Below, piece after piece: positions 1-6,791 of a DNA stretch of 6,791 nt. The stretch spans positions 1 through 6,791 of the forward strand of contig CALEHZ010000271.1 in the NCBI GenBank assembly GCA_937875715.1, read 5' to 3'. The notes beneath the pieces are model-generated. The model saw nothing but the letters and a program-made list of their open reading frames with translations, did not search any database and was not told the DNA's origin. How positions within the stretch are numbered: the stretch's first letter is position 1; each line of letters starts with the position of its first letter. This stretch comes from an uncultured Campylobacter sp. (GTDB lineage: Bacteria; Campylobacterota; Campylobacteria; Campylobacterales; Campylobacteraceae). A program made the translations under genes and the position numbers.

Positions 1-284
1 TTATATTTTGCTTCATCTATTTGGTATAGCTTGTCGCCTTCTTTTACGCTATCGCCTGGTTTAAAAAACTGCTCTTCAATGCTGCCAGCCACTTTGGCTT
101 TTAAAATAACTTCTAGTTCGCTTACACTTTTTCCGTTAAATGAAAGCATAATTTCTTGGTCGCCTTTGCTTACTTTCATCGCAGTTACAGGCAGTGGTGG
201 CGTTTCTTTTTTTTCTTGCTTCTCTTCACAACCGGCTAAAAATAATCCAGCACAAAGTCCTAAAACTAAAATATTTTTTTTCAT
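1..284 (-). CDS. RND efflux periplasmic adaptor lipoprotein, CmeA-like (N-terminal part)
   Basis: This is the N-terminal 94 residues of a membrane fusion (adaptor) protein of a tripartite RND multidrug efflux pump; the rest lies beyond the left edge. Residues 1-18 are a lipoprotein signal peptide ending in the lipobox LAGC, with Cys19 as the lipidation site, so the mature protein should be anchored to the inner membrane and lie in the periplasm. A Lys/Glu/Pro-rich linker follows. Residues 58-90 (ILKAKVAGSIEE, then FKPGDSVKEGDKLYQID) are the first half of the lipoyl-like domain typical of AcrA/CmeA proteins. The ATG has GGAG six bases upstream, and the gene begins 11 nt after the stop of the TetR gene, so the two are almost certainly co-transcribed, as cmeR-cmeABC are in C. 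jejuni. The family is clear. True orthology to CmeA, rather than another RND adaptor, cannot be settled from this fragment. Confidence 0.88.
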   Translation of the reverse strand, partial: MKKNILVLGLCAGLFLAGCEEKQEKKETPPLPVTAMKVSKGDQEIMLSFNGKSVSELEVILKAKVAGSIEEQFFKPGDSVKEGDKLYQIDEAKY

Positions 285-295
285 AAAATTCTCCA

Positions 296-928
296 TTATT
301 TTTTTCTAACGCCATTTATAAAAAATTCAACGCTTTGTTTTATCCACTCATCATCTTGTTTTAAAATGCTTTCGTCATCAAACATCAAAGCACAGACCTT
401 GCCCCATGAGCGCAGTGGTTCTTCAAGTAGATTAAAAAATCTAAAAGTAAGTAGATCGTAATCAGCATCTACAAGCTGAGCAGAAATTTCAGGTCTAGAA
501 AAATAATCAGTAAAAAGTCTAAAAATAGGCTTTATAGCAAGTTCGTAAAATAAATTTGCAACCTGCTCATTTTGACTATCTTGGATGACAATAGACTTAA
601 TATCAATCGCCTTTTTATCTTTGGCTAATCTTACATAATCTCTTGCCATATTTAGTAAAAATTCTTTTAAATCATAGTTAGCATATTTTGCAGCACTTTC
701 TTCTAGTGATGAGACAATTGTAATGGCTTTGCTTTGAATCAAGGCTTTGAGCATACCTTCTTTTGAGCCGTAAGCATCGTATAAAGTGCCAAGCGAACCA
801 CCGCTTTTTTTAATTATTTCAAGCAAGCCGGTTTTGTGATAACCATTTTTTAAAAACAGCTCTAATGCTGCTTCTAACATATTTTGGCGTCTAAGTTCTG
901 ATTTTGGTGTTTTTTTTGGTGTTTTCAT
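296..928 (-). CDS. TetR-family transcriptional repressor, CmeR-like
   Basis: A 210-residue TetR-family regulator, the same length I recall for C. jejuni CmeR. Residues 11-60 form the DNA-binding domain, with the helix-turn-helix around 35-54 (LLEIIKKSGGSLGTLYDAYG) followed by the family signature SKEGML. The remaining ~150 residues are the helical ligand-binding and dimer domain, which varies across the family. The ATG at 926-928 is preceded by AGGA with a fairly long spacer of about 9 nt. The gene lies 11 nt upstream of an RND adaptor gene in the same direction, so it probably represses its own efflux operon and responds to pump substrates. In C. jejuni the operator lies between cmeR and cmeA; here that gap is too short, so the operator should lie upstream of this gene, where a 13-bp inverted repeat (953-993) is found. 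The regulator family is certain; the CmeR role is inferred from context and partial similarity. Confidence 0.9.
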   Translation of the reverse strand: MKTPKKTPKSELRRQNMLEAALELFLKNGYHKTGLLEIIKKSGGSLGTLYDAYGSKEGMLKALIQSKAITIVSSLEESAAKYANYDLKEFLLNMARDYVRLAKDKKAIDIKSIVIQDSQNEQVANLFYELAIKPIFRLFTDYFSRPEISAQLVDADYDLLTFRFFNLLEEPLRSWGKVCALMFDDESILKQDDEWIKQSVEFFINGVRKK

Positions 929-952
929 GTATGTGAAGTCCTTTTAAGAAAA

Positions 953-993
953 ACGAATTTTTTAAAAATTCAAAGAACTCTTAAAAAATTCGT
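953..993. promoter_or_regulatory. 13-bp inverted repeat upstream of the TetR gene, candidate operator
   Basis: The arms ACGAATTTTTTAA (953-965) and TTAAAAAATTCGT (981-993) are perfect reverse complements separated by 15 nt, and lie 25-65 bp upstream of the TetR start codon. TetR regulators usually bind inverted repeats near their own promoter, and this is the most symmetric site in that spacer apart from the cytochrome terminator. The arms also contain the AT-rich words that recur across the window, so the symmetry may instead come from the repeat family. I could not pick a convincing TATAAT box for the TetR gene nearby. Confidence 0.4.
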
Positions 994-1037
994 CAAAATT
1001 TAAAAAATTCACCCAAGAAGGCGAAGTAAAAAATTCA
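962..1037. repeat. Four near-regular copies of TAAAAA(A)TTC
   Basis: The word TAAAAA(A)TTC is repeated with its final C at about 971, 991, 1010 and 1036. The steps are 20, 19 and 26 bp, so the first three copies lie roughly two helical turns apart. The spacer is otherwise non-coding and lies between the cytochrome terminator and the TetR gene. The repeats may be phased A-tracts that bend DNA, part of a regulator site, or members of the AAAATTCA family that is dense throughout the window. Confidence 0.4.
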
Positions 1038-1040
1038 AAA

Positions 1041-1070
1041 TGTAGCGCCTTTGAATTTTCTGGCGCTACA
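1041..1070 (-). terminator. Rho-independent terminator after the cytochrome c genes
   Basis: A perfect 9-bp GC-rich stem, TGTAGCGCC (1041-1049) with GGCGCTACA (1062-1070), encloses a 12-nt loop. It begins 10 nt past the stop codon of the cytochrome gene that ends at 1080. On the minus strand the stem is followed by TTTTGAATTTTTTA, an interrupted U-tract. This should end the cytochrome transcript and insulate the TetR-efflux operon from it. The loop contains TGAATTTTCT, the repeat word discussed in the findings. Confidence 0.7.
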
Positions 1071-1079
1071 AAAAGAGGC

Positions 1080-1400
1080 TTATTTTAAGCTTGTAATGTA
1101 GTCATTTACAGCTGCCATATCCTCATCGCTTAGCTTAGCCATTTGCATTTTCATAACAGCACCTTGACCAACTTTACCTTTGCCTTCGCCAAGAGTGCCA
1201 GCTTTGTAAGCTTTCATATCTGCAAGGCGAGCAGCAGGATCAAGTGTAGTAAGCACTGGAACTTTACCGCCAAGATAAGCTTTTTCAGCTTTTGCGCCAT
1301 GGCAAGCAGCACATGGTTTAAATAGTGTAGCACCATCAGCAGCCAGTGCAAATGAAGTAGCAGCCATGCTTAAAGCTGCACATACAAGAACTTTTTTCAT
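1080..1400 (-). CDS. Periplasmic monohaem cytochrome c (c553-like), copy 1
   Basis: A 106-residue class I cytochrome c, a small periplasmic electron carrier of the respiratory chain. Residues 1-20 are a Sec signal peptide, with likely cleavage at ALA|AD. The single haem site is CAACH at 30-34 (Cys30, Cys33, His34), and Met83 in GAVMKMQ is the best candidate for the distal haem ligand by alignment with the neighbouring copy. The C-terminal helix LSDEDMAAVNDYI (90-102) is identical to that of the copy upstream. AAGGAG lies 6 nt before the ATG. The gene has its own extended -10 (TGCTATAAT at 1447-1454) in the 65-nt gap after its paralogue and is followed by a hairpin terminator. Similar small cytochromes in Campylobacter and Helicobacter carry electrons from the bc1 complex to the cbb3 oxidase or to peroxidases; the partner here is not shown by the sequence. 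Confidence 0.92.
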   Translation of the reverse strand: MKKVLVCAALSMAATSFALAADGATLFKPCAACHGAKAEKAYLGGKVPVLTTLDPAARLADMKAYKAGTLGEGKGKVGQGAVMKMQMAKLSDEDMAAVNDYITSLK

Positions 1401-1446
1401 TTCGTTCTCCTTTTTTAGAATTTTAGCTTAAAAAAGCCAATTTGTG

Positions 1447-1465
1447 ATTATAGCATAAATTTATG
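1447..1465 (-). promoter_or_regulatory. Extended -10 promoter of cytochrome copy 1, abutting a palindrome
   Basis: On the minus strand TATAAT (1447-1452) is preceded by TGC, an extended -10, about 45 nt upstream of the start codon of the gene at 1080-1400. Directly upstream is the perfect 12-bp palindrome CATAAATTTATG (1454-1465), which starts right after the stop codon of the preceding cytochrome gene. The promoter means copy 1 can be made apart from copy 2, though read-through from copy 2 is also likely. The palindrome may be a regulator site or only AT-rich chance symmetry. Confidence 0.6.
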
Positions 1466-1771
1466 TTATTTTAGTGTCTCGATGTAGTCATTAACAGCAG
1501 CCATATCCTCATCGCTAAGGCTTGCTACATTTGGCTTCATCATAGCGCCCATTCCATAGCTGTTTTGAGTGCCAGCTTTGTAGCCTTTTAGAGCTGCTAG
1601 GCGATCTTCTTTAGCAATGCTAGTAAGAGGTTTAGTCTTATTTAGATAGCTTTTTTCAGCTTTTTCACCGTGGCAAGTGATACATTTTTTAAATATAGCT
1701 GCACCATCAGCACCAAAAGCAACACTAGTTGCAAACAAAGCAGCACAAGCTGCCAACGCGAATTTTTTCAT
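1466..1771 (-). CDS. Periplasmic monohaem cytochrome c (c553-like), copy 2
   Basis: A 101-residue class I cytochrome c with a Sec signal peptide (1-20, likely cleavage after AFG) and one haem site, CITCH at 30-34. Met78 in GAMMKPNV is the probable distal ligand. It is the tandem paralogue of the gene at 1080-1400: the two share HGxKAEKxYL, YKAGT and the identical C-terminal LSDEDMAAVNDYI, but differ in the 65-80 loop, where copy 1 has extra Gly/Lys residues (GEGKGKVGQG) and this copy has NSYGMG. As I remember it, this copy is closer to C. jejuni Cj1153, which is also divergent from gmhB. AAGGAG lies 6 nt before the ATG, with a TATAAT at 1804-1809. The function as a periplasmic electron carrier is secure; the donor and acceptor are not known from sequence. 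Confidence 0.92.
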   Translation of the reverse strand: MKKFALAACAALFATSVAFGADGAAIFKKCITCHGEKAEKSYLNKTKPLTSIAKEDRLAALKGYKAGTQNSYGMGAMMKPNVASLSDEDMAAVNDYIETLK

Positions 1772-1803
1772 TGTATTCTCCTTAAAAAAAATTGAGTGGT
1801 GGA

Positions 1804-1809
1804 ATTATA
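1804..1809 (-). promoter_or_regulatory. -10 box of the cytochrome copy 2 promoter
   Basis: On the minus strand a perfect TATAAT lies about 33 nt upstream of the ATG at 1771. T-rich DNA further upstream fits the Campylobacter sigma70 pattern, in which no -35 hexamer is needed. The predicted start is near 1797, giving a leader of about 25 nt with the AAGGAG site. Confidence 0.65.
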
Positions 1810-1835
1810 AGTTTTTTTACTAAAATTTTTGTTAA

Positions 1836-1859
1836 ATTTAATAAAAATTTTTATTAAAT
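1836..1859. repeat. 24-bp perfect AT-only palindrome between divergent promoters
   Basis: Positions 1836-1847 and 1848-1859 are perfect reverse complements with no spacer (centre AAAAATTTTT, flanked by TTTAAT and ATTAAA). The palindrome lies about 40-60 bp upstream of the predicted cytochrome start and about 55-80 bp upstream of the predicted gmhB start. That placement suits a shared activator or repressor. The DNA around it is almost only A and T, which raises the chance of accidental symmetry, although 24 perfect bases is long. Confidence 0.45.
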
Positions 1860-1903
1860 ATAAAAAAATATTAAATTTTAACTATAAAAAAGAAAATTTT
1901 TTG

Positions 1904-1909
1904 TAAAAT
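1904..1909 (+). promoter_or_regulatory. Candidate -10 of gmhB giving a near-leaderless mRNA
   Basis: TTTTTTGTAAAATTC (1897-1911) contains an extended -10-like TAAAAT at 1904-1909. A start about 7 nt downstream would fall near 1916, only a few bases before the gmhB ATG at 1920. No Shine-Dalgarno sequence precedes that ATG, which fits a leaderless transcript. A second candidate, TATAAA at 1883-1888, would give a leader of about 25 nt, but still without a ribosome site. Confidence 0.45.
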
Positions 1910-1919
1910 TCACGCCGTT

Positions 1920-2411
1920 ATGAAAAAAGCAGTATTTTTAGACAGAGACGGTGTCATCAACGAAGATAAAGGTTATGTGAGCAAAATAGAGAATTTTGTC
2001 TGGTGCGATGGTGTATTTGAGGCACTTTTGGAGCTTATGGAGCTTGGTTTTAGCCTTTTTATCGTCACAAACCAATCTGGCATCGGCAGAGGTTATTACA
2101 CTTTAAGCGATTTTGAGCGGCTAAATTCTTACATGCTGGATGAATTTTCTAAAAGAAACATAGAAATAAAAAAGGTGTATTTTTGTCCGCACGCACCAGA
2201 GCAAAACTGCTCTTGCCGCAAACCAAGCCCACAGATGATTTTAAGGGCGGCAGGTGAGTTTGATATAGATTTGCTAAACTCAATTTTAGTAGGCGATAAA
2301 AATAGCGACATCGAGGCTGGAAAAGCTGCTAAAATCGGGCGTTTATTTAAAATCGGCGATGAATTTTCTAGCTTAAAACAAATTGTGAATTTTTTAAAAA
2401 ATTCAAAATAA
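1920..2411 (+). CDS. gmhB: D-glycero-beta-D-manno-heptose 1,7-bisphosphate 7-phosphatase
   Basis: A 163-residue HAD-superfamily phosphatase that removes the 7-phosphate of heptose 1,7-bisphosphate on the route to ADP-heptose for the LOS/LPS inner core; cytoplasmic. Visible motifs are FLDRDGVIN (6-14) with nucleophile Asp8 and acid/base Asp10, VTNQSGIGRG (49-58), the zinc loop Cys89-Pro-His91...Cys97-Ser-Cys99, RKP (100-102) and GDKNSD (125-130). All expected catalytic and zinc residues are present and the length is slightly below the E. coli enzyme. The start is set by the conserved position of FLDRDG, yet no ribosome site precedes it. It is divergent from a cytochrome c gene, as Cj1152c/Cj1153 are in C. 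jejuni, but the other heptose genes (gmhA, hldE, hldD) do not follow; ilvD does. The 3' end contains a 20-bp palindrome (2386-2405) encoding NFLKNS, a string also found in the NadD insertion. Confidence 0.93.
   Translation: MKKAVFLDRDGVINEDKGYVSKIENFVWCDGVFEALLELMELGFSLFIVTNQSGIGRGYYTLSDFERLNSYMLDEFSKRNIEIKKVYFCPHAPEQNCSCRKPSPQMILRAAGEFDIDLLNSILVGDKNSDIEAGKAAKIGRLFKIGDEFSSLKQIVNFLKNSK
2386..2405. repeat. 20-bp perfect palindrome in the gmhB 3' end
   Basis: TGAATTTTTT and AAAAAATTCA abut as a perfect palindrome that covers the last residues of GmhB (NFLKNS), just before the stop codon and the ilvD ribosome site. It is a head-to-head pair of the TGAATTTT word. The same arrangement with one base changed (TGAATTTTCT then AAAAAATTCA) lies in nadD at 6189-6208. 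As RNA it would form an AU-only hairpin immediately upstream of the ilvD start and might influence its translation. Confidence 0.6.
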
Positions 2412-2420
2412 GGAGAAAAA

Positions 2421-4094
2421 ATGAGATCTGACATTGTAAAAAAGGGCTATACACGCACGCCGCACCGCTCACTTTTAAGGGCTACTGGGCTAAAAGACGA
2501 GGATTTTAACAAGCCTTTTATAGGCGTGGCAAATAGCTTTATAGAGATAATTCCTGGGCATTTTTATCTAAATAAATACTCACAAATTATCAAAGATGAA
2601 ATTCGCAAAAATGGTTGCGTGCCTTTTGAGTTTAACACAATCGGCGTTGATGATGGTATCGCTATGGGGCACGAAGGTATGTTATATTCACTTCCTAGCC
2701 GTGAAATCATCGCAAACTCAATAGAAACCGTGATGAATGCGCACTCACTGGATGCGCTAATTTGTGTGCCAAACTGCGATAAAATCGTCCCTGGCATGCT
2801 AATGGGCGCTTTAAGAGTAAATGTGCCTACGATTTTTGTAAGTGGTGGGCCAATGCGTGCTGGCGTGGGCTCAAAGGGCGAGGCGCTTGATTTAAACTCA
2901 GCTTTTGAGGCAGTTGGCGCCTTTGAGACTGGAAAAATAAATGAGAGCGAACTTCACGCGATTGAGTGTGCTTGCTGTCCTGGTGGTGGGTCGTGCTCTG
3001 GTATGTTTACGGCAAACTCAATGAACACACTTTGTGAGGCGATGGGAATTGCGCTTGATGGAAATGGCACGATTTTAGCGCTTACGCCGGAGCGTGAAGA
3101 GCTTTTAAGAGCGGCTGCTAGGCGCATCTGCGAGATCGCTACTGATGAGAGCTATAAAATTCGCAATATCATAAACGCTAAAACCATCAAAAACGCAATG
3201 GTCGTGGATATGGCGATGGGTGGTAGTTCTAATACGATTTTACACATGCTTGCTATCAGCCGTGAGGCAGGTGCGCCGCTGGATATCGCTAGCTTAAACG
3301 ACATTAGCCGCGCTGTGCCACACATCGCAAAGGTCGCTCCAAGCTTGCCTAGCGTTCATATGCAAGATGTCCATAATGCTGGCGGTCTAAGCGCAATTAT
3401 TAAAGAAATTAGCGATTATGATAGCACTTTGCTTGATCTTAGCGTAAAGACGATTAGCGGCGATACTTTGGGCGAGCGTGTGGCAAATGCTAAAATCAGC
3501 GATGAAAAGGTGATTCATAGGGTAAATAATGCTTATTCTATGCGTGGTGGGCTTGCGATACTTTTTGGCAATTTAGCCGAGCAAGGCTGCGTGATAAAGG
3601 CTGCTGGTATCATCGGCGAGCGAAAATTCAAAGGCAAGGCGATTTGTTTTAATAGCCAAGATGAAGCAATAGAGGGCATTTCAAGCGGCAAAGTCCAAAA
3701 AGGGCATGTGGTAGTCCTTCGCTACGAAGGCCCAAAAGGCGGCCCTGGAATGCAAGAAATGCTAAGCCCAACTAGCCTAATCGTAGGTCGTGGGCTTGGC
3801 GCTGATGTGGCGCTCATCACTGATGGGCGTTTTAGCGGTGCTACAAGAGGGCTTAGCATCGGGCATGTAAGCCCTGAGGCTGCTGAGGGCGGTATGATAG
3901 GGCTACTTAAAGACGGCGATGAGATTGAGATTGATGTGGATAATTTCAGCATAAATGCGCTTTTAAGCGAGGCTGAAATCGCTGCTCGCAAGGCTGCTTG
4001 GAAATACGAAGGTAAAGAAGTAAAAAGCAAATGGCTAAGGCAATATCAAAAGCTAGTAACAAACGCTAGCAATGGTGCGATTTTAGAGGCTTGA
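2421..4094 (+). CDS. ilvD: Dihydroxy-acid dehydratase
   Basis: A 557-residue IlvD/Edd-family enzyme, full family length. It dehydrates 2,3-dihydroxy-isovalerate and 2,3-dihydroxy-3-methylvalerate to the 2-keto acids that become valine, leucine and isoleucine. Visible signatures are PNCDK (117-121, Cys119 as cluster ligand, Lys121), [18 protein letters not shown] (185-202, with Cys192 the likely ligand), [24 protein letters not shown] (434-447) and [20 protein letters not shown] starting near 468. The PGHFYL region lacks the first cysteine ligand of the [2Fe-2S] dehydratases and resembles the oxygen-sensitive E. coli enzyme, so a [4Fe-4S] cluster is likely; this is inference. AAGGAG (2410-2415) overlaps the gmhB stop, and the gap is 9 nt, so the two genes are probably co-transcribed although their pathways are unrelated. 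Its GC content is visibly higher than that of its neighbours, and it holds only one copy of the TGAATTTT word. Confidence 0.97.
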
Positions 4095-4190
4095 ATTTTA
4101 TAAATTTCATAAAATTCAGCGACTAAATTTTATAAAAATACTGCTGAATTTTATGAAAATAGTAAAATTAGCACTGAATTTTATGAAAAA
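4092..4190. repeat. Spacer repeat cluster: CTGAATTTTATGAAA twice direct, once inverted
   Basis: Directly after ilvD, the 15-mer CTGAATTTTATGAAA occurs at 4144-4158 and 4174-4188, and its reverse complement at 4105-4119. The inverted copy plus one base pairs with the first direct copy as a perfect 16-bp stem (4105-4120 with 4143-4158, 22-nt loop). A further 10-bp inverted repeat begins at the ilvD stop codon (TGAATTTTAT 4092-4101 with ATAAAATTCA 4109-4118, 7-nt loop). The two direct copies are 30 bp apart. Alternative pairings are therefore possible, which could act as a weak terminator or protect the mRNA 3' end. No coding frame fits this stretch. Confidence 0.75.
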
Positions 4191-4198
4191 CAATTTTA

Positions 4199-4229
4199 TG
4201 GCAAAATAGCAAATCTTGTTATTTTGCCA
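4199..4229. terminator. Hairpin after ilvD, possible terminator
   Basis: TGGCAAAATAGC (4199-4210) pairs with GTTATTTTGCCA (4218-4229) as a 12-bp stem with one G-U pair and a 7-nt loop. It is the most GC-clamped hairpin between ilvD and the next reading frame and probably helps end the gmhB-ilvD transcript. No clean U-tract follows on either strand, so it may instead be an mRNA 3'-end stabiliser or a regulator site upstream of the acyltransferase remnant. Confidence 0.4.
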
Positions 4230-4250
4230 CTTGTAAAATTTATATAAAAA

Positions 4251-4818
4251 ATGTATAAAAAAGAATTAGAATTTTTAAATAGTTTGAAATTTTTTGCTGC
4301 TTTTTCTATAGCTATTTTTTTACATTACAACGATCATTTTCTGCCATTTTTAAATATAAAAAATCCTTTTTCTGAATTTTCTATTTTTTGGTTTTTTTCT
4401 CTTTATAGCTATATTTTTGTGGAAATGTTTTTTGTGATTTCTGGGCTACTTTTTATCATTGCTTATATGGAAAAAATTCAAAATAAAATGAAATTTTCTA
4501 GCTTTTTATTTAATAGAATCATTCGCATCTATCCACTTTTGATTGTAACTAGCATTTATATGTATTTGGCTAATTTTGTATCTTTGTCAATTTAGTATTT
4601 TAAGGCTTGAAATTTTTAAAAAACTAGGCGGAATTGCTTTTGAGGTATATTTATGGAATTTTCCAATTTACATAACCTTGCACATTTTGATTGTGCTTGG
4701 GGCTGTAAATGCAAATATTAGCTCTGGGTATTTCATATTTTTACTTGCCGTCATTCATTTGATAGTAGCAATTTTGTCTGCTTTTATTTTTAATAAAATT
4801 AAGATATTTAAAAAGTGA
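4251..4818 (+). pseudogene. Acyltransferase-3 family membrane protein, internally deleted and frameshifted
   Basis: Two pieces of one acyltransferase-3 (OafA-like) gene, a family of integral membrane enzymes that O-acetylate surface sugars, are joined out of frame. The first piece (4251-4595, 114 residues) has the family start: KFFAAFSIAIFLHY with its helix-1 histidine, EMFFVISGLLFII, and the loop FNRIIRIYPLL. It ends at a TAG. The second piece, open from 4549 in the next frame to the TGA at 4816-4818, has the family C-terminus, GGIAFEVYLWNFPIYITLHIL, and a last helix with a basic tail. Together they encode under 200 residues, where the family usually has about 340-380, so roughly 150-200 residues of the middle helices are missing. 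The junction lies between about 4549 and 4600. The first ATG lacks a ribosome site; TTGTAAAATT (4231-4240) may be its -10. The DNA is more AT-rich than its neighbours. It may be a decayed LOS/glycan modification gene. Confidence 0.8.
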
Positions 4819-4854
4819 ATTTTATAAAATTTATAAATTTCAAGTAAAAGCAAA

Positions 4855-4886
4855 AAGCAGAAAATTCACTTTTGAATTTTCTGCTT
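4855..4886 (-). terminator. Rho-independent terminator of gap
   Basis: AAGCAGAAAATTCA (4855-4868) and TGAATTTTCTGCTT (4873-4886) form a perfect 14-bp stem with a 4-nt loop, 27 nt past the gap stop codon. On the minus strand it is followed by TTTGCTTTTACTT, so the tail is U-rich in the gap direction. On the plus strand the tail is poorer, although it may also stop transcripts from the acyltransferase remnant. The stem consists of two facing copies of the TGAATTTTCT word and closely matches the palindrome inside nadD. Confidence 0.75.
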
Positions 4887-4913
4887 AAATTCTGCTTGAA
4901 TTTTTTGAATAAA

Positions 4914-5906
4914 TTAAGCTTTTGAAATGTATTTGCCAAGTTCTACAAGGCGTTTTGTATAGCCCCATTCGTTATCATACCACGCCATGATTTTTACCAT
5001 GTAATCGCAAATAACTTGCGTCAAATCAGCCGCCACGATGCTAGAATACTCGCAAGTCATAAAATCGCTGCTAACACGCTCTTCAAAATCCACTAGCATA
5101 ATGCCTTTTAAGCTAGAATTCGCAGCTTTTAAAAAAGTCTCGTTTAGCTCGTCCTTGCTAGTCTTGCGTCCTAAAACCGCTGTTAAATCTACCATTGAGA
5201 CATCAGCTACTGGCACACGCACACTTTGTCCGTGAAGCTTGCCATTTAAGCTTGGCATGATTAGCTTCATCGCTTTTGCTGCGCCTGTGGTGCTTGGAAT
5301 GAGATTTGTAGCAGCGGCGCGAGATGAGCGCAAATCTTTTGCTTTGCTATCAAGCAAAGACTGACTATTTGTATATGCGTGAATTGTAGTCATCAGTCCT
5401 TTTTCTATGCCAAAATTATCTTCAAGCACTTTTGCCACTGGCCCTAAGCAGTTTGTGGTACAGCTTGCATTTGAGATGATTTTTTGCCCAGCATAAAGAT
5501 TTTCATTTACGCCAAGCACGAAGGTCGGCGTATCATCCTTTGCCGGTGCGCTCATAACTACCTTTTTTGCTCCTGCTTTTAGGTATGCCTCGCATTTTTC
5601 GCTGGTTAAAAACTTGCCAGTGCATTCAAGCACGACATCAATGCCGCTAAGGTCCATTTCATCAATGTTTCTAGTGCTATACATGCGAACTTTTTGCTCA
5701 CCGATTTTTAGATAATTCTCACCATCAATTTCTACTTCTTTATCAAACTCGCCGTGAATTGTGTCGTATTTTAGAAGGTAGCGAGTAACTTTTCGCTCAG
5801 CCGTGTCGTTTATGACGCAAAGCTCGTAGTTTGGGTCATTTGCGATGATTCTAGCTGCGCAACGCCCGATGCGACCAAAGCCGTTAATTGCGATTTTTAG
5901 AGCCAT
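4914..5906 (-). CDS. gapA: Glyceraldehyde-3-phosphate dehydrogenase, NAD-dependent type
   Basis: A 330-residue GAPDH of normal length. It catalyses the reversible, phosphate- and NAD-dependent oxidation of glyceraldehyde 3-phosphate; in campylobacters, which as a rule lack a working phosphofructokinase, it acts mainly in gluconeogenesis. The Rossmann start is INGFGRIGR (7-15), and Asp34 in VINDT suits NAD preference. SNASCTTNC (145-153) places the catalytic Cys at 149, and His176 lies in TTIHAYTNSQ. STTGAAKA (205-212) and WYDNEWGY (309-316) complete the set. The ATG at 5904-5906 was chosen because AAGGAT lies 6 nt upstream and the protein then starts MALKIAINGFG; an in-frame upstream start would add 37 unrelated residues and run into nadD. 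It is divergent from nadD, as in C. jejuni (Cj1403c/Cj1404), with overlapping promoters, and is followed by a strong hairpin terminator. Confidence 0.97.
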   Translation of the reverse strand: MALKIAINGFGRIGRCAARIIANDPNYELCVINDTAERKVTRYLLKYDTIHGEFDKEVEIDGENYLKIGEQKVRMYSTRNIDEMDLSGIDVVLECTGKFLTSEKCEAYLKAGAKKVVMSAPAKDDTPTFVLGVNENLYAGQKIISNASCTTNCLGPVAKVLEDNFGIEKGLMTTIHAYTNSQSLLDSKAKDLRSSRAAATNLIPSTTGAAKAMKLIMPSLNGKLHGQSVRVPVADVSMVDLTAVLGRKTSKDELNETFLKAANSSLKGIMLVDFEERVSSDFMTCEYSSIVAADLTQVICDYMVKIMAWYDNEWGYTKRLVELGKYISKA

Positions 5907-5923
5907 GTTTTTATCCTTTTTTT

Positions 5924-5932
5924 TGGTATAAT
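5924..5932 (+). promoter_or_regulatory. Extended -10 of the nadD-rsfS promoter
   Basis: TGGTATAAT (5924-5932) is a perfect extended -10 preceded by a run of eight or more T, the classic Campylobacter sigma70 layout. The predicted start is near 5939, giving a leader of about 39 nt. The T-run is the same DNA that encodes the gap ribosome site on the other strand. Confidence 0.7.
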
Positions 5933-5941
5933 TGCGCTGTG

Positions 5942-5950
5942 ATTTTAGCA
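5942..5950 (-). promoter_or_regulatory. Extended -10 of the gap promoter
   Basis: On the minus strand TGCTAAAAT (hexamer TAAAAT at 5942-5947) is an extended -10, with a predicted start near 5935 and a leader of about 29 nt to the gap ATG. T-rich DNA upstream fits the Campylobacter sigma70 pattern. The predicted start lies to the left of the predicted nadD start, so the two promoters overlap face to face. Confidence 0.55.
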
Positions 5951-5977
5951 AAATTTTATTTAATTTAAGGAAAATTT

Positions 5978-6583
5978 TTGAATATTGCGATTTTTGGTGG
6001 TTCGTTTGACCCGCCACACGCCGGACATGATGAGATTGTAAAAGCTGCGTTAAATACGCTTGATATTGATAAGCTCATTATAATTCCAACTTTTTGTTCG
6101 CCTTTTAAAAGTGAATTTTCTGCCTTGCCTAAGCAGCGCCTTTCGTGGTGTAAGGCGCTTTGGGGCGAGAATTTAGAAAATTCAAACTTGAATTTTCTAA
6201 AAAATTCAGAAAATTCAAAAATTCTAGTTAGTGATTTTGAGATTTTGCGTGGATTAAAAAATGGGCAAAAAACGCCTACGATAACGAGTGTTAGGCACTT
6301 TAAAGAGCTTTTGAAACCAGAAAAAATTTATTTAATAATCGGCGCTGATTGCTTAGAAAACTTACATAAATGGGCTGAATTTTCTAGTCTTTGTGAGCTT
6401 GTGGAATTCGTGGTTGCCACAAGAGAGAATTCACAAATTCCAGATTGCTTTAAAACCTTGAAAAATTTAGAAATAAATGTTAATATTTCATCATCAATTA
6501 TAAGGAAAAACTTAGATTTTAAGCAAGTTTTGCCAAAAATCTTAGATGAAGTGAAGGAATTTTATGGAAGAAAGAATCAGTAG
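5978..6583 (+). CDS. nadD: Nicotinate-nucleotide adenylyltransferase
   Basis: A 201-residue cytoplasmic nucleotidyltransferase that joins ATP and nicotinate mononucleotide to give deamido-NAD, the next-to-last step of NAD synthesis. GGSFDPPHAGH (7-17) holds the HxGH nucleotide-binding motif (His14, His17); KTPTITSV (98-105), IIGAD (120-124), LHKW (129-132) and ISSSIIR (170-176) are the other family blocks. The start is TTG, chosen because AAGGA sits 6 nt upstream and the family begins MxIAxFGGSFDP. Compared with the C. jejuni protein as I remember it, residues about 66-80 (LENSNLNFLKNSENS) are an extra low-complexity stretch between the conserved WG and SDFEI; it is encoded by a palindromic repeat (6172-6217). 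The active-site blocks on both sides are intact, so the enzyme is probably functional. It overlaps rsfS by 20 nt. Confidence 0.95.
   Translation: MNIAIFGGSFDPPHAGHDEIVKAALNTLDIDKLIIIPTFCSPFKSEFSALPKQRLSWCKALWGENLENSNLNFLKNSENSKILVSDFEILRGLKNGQKTPTITSVRHFKELLKPEKIYLIIGADCLENLHKWAEFSSLCELVEFVVATRENSQIPDCFKTLKNLEINVNISSSIIRKNLDFKQVLPKILDEVKEFYGRKNQ
6172..6217. repeat. Palindromic repeat block inside nadD
   Basis: The arms 6172-6185 (TTTAGAAAATTCAA) and 6188-6201 (TTGAATTTTCTAAA) are perfect 14-bp reverse complements with a 2-nt centre. They are followed by two more AAAATTCA words ending at 6208 and 6217. The block lies in frame and encodes the Asn/Ser/Leu/Lys-rich extra segment of NadD, with AAT-TCA (Asn-Ser) three times. 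The core matches the gap terminator stem (4859-4882) except in the central few bases. Confidence 0.8.
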
Positions 6584-6791
6584 AATAACTAGAATTCTAG
6601 ATGAGAAAAAAGCCGAAGATATTGAAGTTATCGATATGAGCGGTCAAGAATACATCGCAAAGTATGTAATAATCGCAACTACACTTCACTCACGTCACGC
6701 TCTTAGCCTAAAAGACGAGCTTTCTTCGCAGTTAAAACCACTAGGAGAAAAGTTTTTGGGCGAAGAAGTAAGCGATGATTGGTGTGTGATT
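6564..6791 (+). CDS. rsfS: Ribosomal silencing factor RsfS (N-terminal part)
   Basis: The first 76 residues of a protein that normally has about 110; the rest lies beyond the right edge. RsfS (YbeB, Iojap family) binds ribosomal protein L14 (uL14) on the 50S subunit and blocks joining with the 30S, damping translation during starvation. Visible family features are the N-terminal helix ending ILDEKKAEDIEVIDM (11-25), the strand YVIIATTLHSRHALSL (35-50) and the DDWCVI block (71-76) that leads to the conserved Asp-Gly segment. The ATG at 6564 lies within the end of nadD (20-nt overlap) and has AAGGA 5 nt upstream, so the genes are likely translationally coupled. The nadD-rsfS pairing is widespread in bacteria and present in C. 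jejuni. Confidence 0.93.
   Translation, partial: MEERISRITRILDEKKAEDIEVIDMSGQEYIAKYVIIATTLHSRHALSLKDELSSQLKPLGEKFLGEEVSDDWCVI

Follow-up and report, generated by a model that had tools for sequence, protein, structure and literature searches.

The 6,791-base stretch of DNA from an uncultured Campylobacter sp. that was analysed here at its full length (contig CALEHZ010000271.1, hereafter “the window”) carries 27 copies of one 8-base word, TGAATTTT, which we are inclined to regard as a DNA uptake (self-recognition) tag in the dialect of a single lineage, centred on the hexamer RAATTY. In Campylobacter jejuni, three sources report, import is restricted to DNA that CtsM has methylated at RA(m6)ATTY, discrimination takes place on entry into the periplasm, and EcoRI-methylated sites have served as an uptake signal (PMC10046745, PMC8468864, PMC8627207). 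As the word of the window and the words amplified by related lineages (one in genomes G041 and G066, another in G081) all enclose this site reported to be needed for C. jejuni import, the word is likely to be its lineage's tag for own DNA. No report of these words was found in the titles and abstract openings listed by searches of the open-licence PMC literature.

Over-representation of the word in the window

The word is found on both strands (14 copies forward, 13 reverse; 3.98 copies/kb), the exact count agreeing with the approximately 27 copies tallied by hand in an earlier sequence-only reading of the window, all 11 of whose starts for the longer 10-mer TGAATTTTCT were recovered as well. 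TGAATTT is followed by a T in 27/27 copies, and GAATTT, the core that the same reading had matched to RAATTY, lies within every one of the 27. As the ninth base is C, T or A and never G, and the tenth is T in 89% of the copies, the window word is better written TGAATTTTHT, which is not palindromic, as a highly iterated palindrome (HIP) would be. The flanks of the 27 copies share little sequence past ~13 bp, arguing against a dispersed repeat of the repetitive extragenic palindromic/bacterial interspersed mosaic element (REP/BIME) type, and the density characteristic of uptake sequences (~1/kb or more, in both orientations) is reached by the window word and by the relatives' own words alike.

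When fitted to the window's own sequence, Markov models predict 1.8 copies at order 1, then 2.1, 4.1 and 8.1, 13.5 at order 5 and 23.9 at order 6 (the last being circular, since the word itself is included), meaning that the approximately one copy that had been expected from the sequence alone holds for low orders but not for the higher ones. The maximum of 500 self-trained simulations was 14, 17 and 26 copies at orders 3, 4 and 5, respectively, so that the excess over the order-5 model is only ~twofold. At orders 5-6, the self-trained models account for much of the count, as the word is part of what they were trained on, which makes the relatives a better null, and there TGAATTTT occurs at 0.09/kb (G041 sample), 0.10/kb (G066 sample) and, pooled over five other genomes of the clade, ~0.32/kb (52 copies in ~160 kb), i.e., at less than a tenth of the window's density in the sampled relatives.

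Fairer nulls point the same way: 14 coding copies were seen versus a mean of 3.6 and a maximum of 9 in 1000 protein- and codon-preserving shuffles, and 11 copies wholly in spacers versus 1.1 and a maximum of 7 in 1000 order-2 simulations, the remaining 2/27 straddling stop codons and supplying the TGA of an open reading frame (ORF). The 168 anagrams of TGAATTTT average 1.3 copies in the window, with the next four most frequent being shifted readings of the same word. Being the “top 8-mer” was dropped as a test of the word, as the top 8-mer of order-3 simulations averages 24 copies (maximum 48), probably owing to A/T runs.

Words of related lineages

Comparisons were made with 153 genomes from the family to which the nearest named genome, G001, belongs, in none of which TGAATTTTCT is dense (maximum 164 copies in 2.9 Mb, in G136; 15 in G041 and 8 in G066). 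In the IlvD tree, the window is sister to G041 and G066 (support 100/99), and G081, with a GC content of 48-49% in the sampled stretches, belongs to the same larger clade (93/96, the branch not being starred). A survey of the top word in individual genomes revealed that G041 and G066 carry GGAATTCTAGA(ATTCC), GGAATTCTAGA being part of the palindrome GGAATTCTAGAATTCC: with both halves of the palindrome counted, GGAATTCTAGA occurs 2,313 times in G041 and 2,387 times in G066 (reversed control 0) and never more than 11 times in any of the remaining 151 genomes, being split 1168/1145 between the strands of G041 and spread at 17-41 copies per 20 kb over 18 stretches of the two genomes. The G081 word, the palindromic TTCAAATTTGAA, has 1,468 sites in its own genome and no more than 24 in any of the remaining 152, so that the words of both G041/G066 and G081 amount to ~1.0-1.5 copies/kb genome-wide; G086 shows a weaker AATTCTAG-type word.

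These counts, taken together with the tree, show sister lineages to have different words, as is the case for uptake sequences of related species, and the different words may well act as dialects.

Another palindrome, TTACATGTAA, is amplified in G010 (1059 sites), G020 (1084), G013 (804), G068 (287) and G053 (138), with a reversed control of 0-2 and coding copies exceeding codon shuffles (15 vs 0.7 in G010, 10 vs 0.5 in G020); the CtsM homologues of these five genomes are of 29-32% only, and no CtsM homologue was found in G021 (78 TTACATGTAA sites). Separately, TAAATTTA is ~3x over an order-4 model (39/10.8, 38/13.3 and 27/8.4; L191 and L250 in G071, L197 and L198 in G076, L216 in G042), perhaps as a mild dialect, and Helicobacter-type loci show other top hexamers (AGATTC/AGAATC in L008 and L013, GATTCC in L009, AATCTC/GAATCC/GATTCC in L044) that are perhaps further lineage words. 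The G023 candidate GCCGTTGGC, with 67 copies in 20 kb, was dropped as a CRISPR-like array of 64-71-bp period (L212, ~14629-18990).

The RAATTY core within the words and across the family

Single-base variants of GGAATTCTAGA were tallied over sequence samples of G041 (206 kb) and G066 (210 kb), and in these two genomes the near-misses respect RAATTY. The two variants keeping RAATTY total 71 and 68 copies (G041 and G066, respectively), the four breaking R or Y total 7 and 7, and the 12 changes altering AATT total 1 and 1. Outside of the hexamer, variants are common at 0-based positions 0, 9 and 10 (67/78, 32/35 and 41/40 in G041/G066) and rare at positions 7 and 8 (6/3 and 4/6). The kept variants are transitions, yet transitions within AATT total 0 and 1, so the type of mutation does not explain the pattern.

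For the family as a whole, 60 of the 153 genomes were sampled by choice (near relatives plus a spread). Ranking 6-mers against an order-3 model puts a RAATTY form first in 16/60 genomes and in the window, and among the top five in 30/60, the best RAATTY rank at 14 outgroup loci being 16. When the proteins and their codon usage are kept constant (first four stretches per genome), RAATTY is more than 1.2-fold over the codon-shuffle expectation in 56/61 sets, i.e., the 60 genomes plus the window (maximum 2.8; window 1.38), and at 0.64-1.04 in seven Campylobacterales controls, 0/7 of which are above 1.2. The five exceptions are G041, G066, G010, G053 and G019. The genes of the first two are enriched for GAATTC instead (27 vs 8.4 and 36 vs 8.9), and G010 and G053 are among the genomes with only distant CtsM homologues noted above. 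In coding DNA, the enrichment concerns a single RAATTY form in G041/G066 and likewise in G081, and mainly GAATTT in the window (26 vs 15.2 expected; GAATTC, at 3 vs 1.8, is too rare to judge), while in most other sampled genomes it extends to RAATTY as a whole, by synonymous codon choice. Depletion of AAATTT in word-bearing genomes was discarded as support: it stands at 0.63-0.83 in five masked sets, but at 1.04, unmasked, in the larger G086 sample.

Placement of the words within genomes

In the window, the word is scarce in conserved coding sequence, as uptake sequences are: nadD has 6 copies, the gmhB-like gene 4, ilvD 1, and gap and two cytochrome genes 0. The preference for spacers and weakly conserved coding DNA claimed from the sequence alone is thereby borne out, as is the near absence from ilvD and gap, with the qualification that a second copy (at 4092) lies over the TGA stop of ilvD.

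The words of G041 and G066 are mostly non-coding (39 coding and 254 non-coding in G041, 44 and 239 in G066) and are present in 16/17 and 13/14 convergent gaps but only 2/13 and 5/12 divergent ones, respectively. Those of G081 are mostly genic (47/65 sampled; codon shuffle 1.8, maximum 5 of 50, over 57 kb).

One site is shared. Compared with G041/G066, a NadD loop of the window is longer by 42 bp, in frame (6165-6206, +; DNA and protein alignment), and the added sequence is largely built of words. The loop has copies at 6177-6184 (-), 6189-6198 (+, a 10-mer), 6201-6208 (-) and 6210-6217 (-), and at the same place in the DNA alignment G041 and G066 have GGGAATTCTAGAG. At the protein level only, the loop has GNSR-like residues in several metagenomic relatives and a shorter ENSENS version in P0002 (78%); neither a word-type loop nor GNSR-type residues were seen in the protein alignment for P0003/P0004.

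Methyltransferases, phages and plasmids

All genomes searched (23/23) encode a methyltransferase of the D12 family (PF02086) whose open frame measures 361-430 aa, with several candidates in G001. The RAATTY enzyme assigned by REBASE to C. jejuni F38011 is reported to have 1,104 bp, and it is because of this matching length and of family membership that the D12 homologues are provisionally named CtsM here. DPPY is kept in 12/12 aligned sequences, three of which are N-truncated by the extracted stretches. Beside this catalytic motif, the G041/G066 enzyme (L257, L258) has DPPYNE where the other ten have DPPYNQ; both of these genomes favour GAATTC.

Of two Campylobacter phages (L320, L322), CP220 holds RAATTY at 0.77 of the codon-shuffle expectation (z -5.9; YAATTR 0.92), and NCTC12673 at 0.66 (z -7.0; YAATTR 0.76, z -3.3). 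Three pattern scans of IMG/VR viral contigs found no phage or provirus of the window lineage: one long exact pattern had no match, and two paired-word patterns returned 15 and 64 loci, none at window density, the highest being 1.5/kb (two copies in 1.3 kb).

Genes and remaining copies of the window

Partial or complete, the genes of the window encode a TetR regulator, two small cytochromes c, a HAD phosphatase (which we take to be gmhB-like), IlvD, a broken membrane protein, GapA, NadD and the start of what is presumably an RsfS-like protein, a call for which NadD-RsfS fusions among NadD records are a further basis. The membrane-protein gene (4251-4818) is broken: it consists of ORFs of 114 and 80 aa that overlap and have no Pfam match, and it resembles a decayed acyltransferase-type gene.

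By motif count, tetR holds one copy (322-329, -), and the tetR/cytochrome c spacer holds the one at 965-972 (-); further spacer copies are at 1004-1011 and 1030-1037 (both -), with a spacer 10-mer at 1052-1061 (+). The divergent spacer ahead of the gmhB-like gene has one at 1905-1912 (-), and the gene itself has 10-mers at 2141-2150 and 2360-2369 (both +), followed by the inverted pair TGAATTTTTTAAAAAATTCA (2386-2405; words at 2386, + and 2398, -). The sole word entirely within ilvD (3623-3630, -), also evident from the coding tally, is succeeded by the one whose TGA is the ilvD stop codon in the ORF list (4092-4099, +) and by spacer copies at 4111-4118 (-), 4145-4152 (+) and 4175-4182 (+). 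The broken gene contains a 10-mer (4373-4382, +) and a word (4473-4480, -), and the ORF at 4576-4818 ends in the TGA of another (4816-4823, +). Between convergent genes lies the inverted pair AAGCAGAAAATTCA-CTTT-TGAATTTTCTGCTT (4855-4886; words at 4861, - and 4873, +), as read directly from the sequence, with one more copy past gap (4897-4904, +). In nadD, 10-mers at 6112-6121 and 6376-6385 (both +) accompany the loop copies.

Discussion

How a word of this kind might come about can be outlined as follows: the CtsM methyltransferase would methylate RAATTY within the word, cells would preferentially import fragments bearing the methylated word, and homologous recombination would then spread and restore it, so that it would pile up wherever the sequence is free to change, i.e., in spacers, gene ends and tolerant protein loops, presumably throughout the genome of the window lineage. 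A shift in the taste of the uptake machinery for what lies beyond RAATTY would give rise to a new lineage dialect and, with it, a barrier to exchange.

Several observations weigh against such an account. The near-misses of G081 tolerate other RAATTY forms hardly at all (1 and 1 copies), only AAATTT being accepted, and the window has too few copies for such a count. The lineage-specific methylated tag that had been proposed from the window alone is thus partly supported, by the relatives' own RAATTY-enclosing words, by the near-misses of G041/G066 (though not of G081), by the codon-level enrichment in most sampled family genomes and by the D12 methyltransferases of about CtsM's length. RAATTY by itself reaches 5-12 sites/kb across the 15 sets listed, which makes a longer word unnecessary for carrying a methylated site. 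Masking TGAATTTT in the window lowers AAATTC to 1.38-fold, rank 219, and masking the words of G041 and G066 leaves it at 2.66 and 2.58, rank 2, over all DNA, meaning that in these two genomes enrichment of the own form only is true of coding DNA and not overall (the residual AAATTC probably being near-miss copies). YAATTR falls short of 1 not only in the family but also in the controls, leaving only the RAATTY excess as telling; G019, with a 57% CtsM homologue and RAATTY at 0.74, is a true counter-case; and the outgroup genomes G010, G020 and G013 amplify a palindrome without RAATTY. Fully 87% of G041 words (254/293) are non-coding, which is more extreme than usual for the words of Haemophilus and Neisseria. 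ComEC (PF03772) is present in 13/13 genomes, but also in 10/14 control genomes, E. coli included, so its presence says little. Among mobile elements, the low YAATTR of NCTC12673 means that its avoidance is not specific to RAATTY, and two C. concisus plasmids are RAATTY-rich (1.61 and 1.63), unlike a conjugative plasmid from C. lari (1.08); as a test of uptake drive versus repair bias, phages and plasmids thus give a mixed result that fits an uptake tag and is also compatible with repair or mutation bias.

It is this bias that supplies the one serious rival, unlikely though we consider it, namely that RAATTY methylation, via methylation-dependent repair or mutation bias, makes and maintains the words without any role in uptake. 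Cyanobacterial HIPs vary by lineage and accompany methyltransferases of matching specificity, as reported by Elhai 2015 (PMC4390886), and the palindromic words of G041/G066 and G081, the distant CtsM homologues of the five main TTACATGTAA genomes (another word, another enzyme) and the RAATTY enrichment of the two resident C. concisus plasmids would all suit this explanation. The non-palindromic word of the window does not, nor do the differences between sister lineages, and the scarcity of G041/G066 words in genes and divergent spacers would not be expected from a pure repair bias; moreover, RAATTY methylation has already been reported to act in C. jejuni uptake. A structural origin, in which slippage and local duplication would have multiplied AT-rich hairpins, terminators or intergenic arrays, seems improbable: inverted pairs do exist in the window (2386/2398, 4861/4873, 6177/6189 and 6189/6201), as do arrays in G041 spacers and a NadD loop differing in length between the window and P0002, but 14/27 window words and 47/65 sampled G081 words lie in genes, copies stand in both orientations over whole genomes of the relatives, and local slippage explains neither one identical genome-wide word nor the RAATTY in each.

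A protein-binding or Chi-like signal (for the nucleoid, segregation or recombination) unrelated to uptake appears slightly less probable still. The high and even density of the G041/G066 words would agree with it, and the even strand counts in G041 and in the window would not, although, contig orientation being arbitrary, they say little against oriented signals of the Chi or KOPS kind; housekeeping sites that switch between sister species are, in any case, unusual. Chance or base composition, for which the self-trained order-5 maximum of 26 copies in 500 simulations might be adduced, is hardly credible, as the codon-preserving and spacer nulls fall short and the density in sampled relatives is below a tenth of that in the window.

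Among known systems, the uptake tag that we favour resembles the CtsM-based discrimination of C. jejuni in that its words enclose RAATTY, a CtsM-like D12 methyltransferase is present in relatives and RAATTY is enriched in most sampled genomes; it differs in that C. jejuni is described, in the sources cited at the outset, as needing the methylated hexamer, whereas here an 8-16-bp word around the hexamer is amplified and differs per lineage. The closest parallel in behaviour is the DNA uptake sequence (DUS) of the Neisseriaceae, which, according to Frye 2013, is present in thousands of copies and comes in dialects, with related species varying what surrounds a common core (PMC3630211); here, however, the core is a methyltransferase site, the words are partly palindromic and the uptake role is predicted from sequence. 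Cyanobacterial HIP1 and alternate HIPs, as summarised in PMC4390886, are likewise iterated words with a methyltransferase site, replaced in some lineages, and are not tied to uptake in that summary; the window word, by contrast, is non-palindromic, and G041 words are mostly non-coding.

The uptake signal sequences (USS) of the Pasteurellaceae are, like the window word, dense, non-palindromic and commoner in weakly conserved and spacer DNA. Their sequence is unrelated to the window word, and we know of no role of methylation in them.

A broader proposal can be entertained tentatively, with rather less assurance than the uptake tag itself: the Campylobacteraceae might possess a whole system of uptake dialects, with RAATTY as a methylation-dependent hexamer that synonymous codons favour family-wide, and with single lineages repeatedly breeding longer private words (TGAATTTTHT, GGAATTCTAGAATTCC, TTCAAATTTGAA) that would serve as mating-type-like barriers to DNA exchange. 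If the words are indeed uptake dialects, methylation-based and sequence-based self-recognition would be two ends of one system, dialects could be observed as they arise between sister species, and the evolution of uptake words would become testable; G041, G081 and the window lineage would constitute a comparative set for finding the receptor, and the words themselves would offer a genomic read-out of which lineages exchange DNA.

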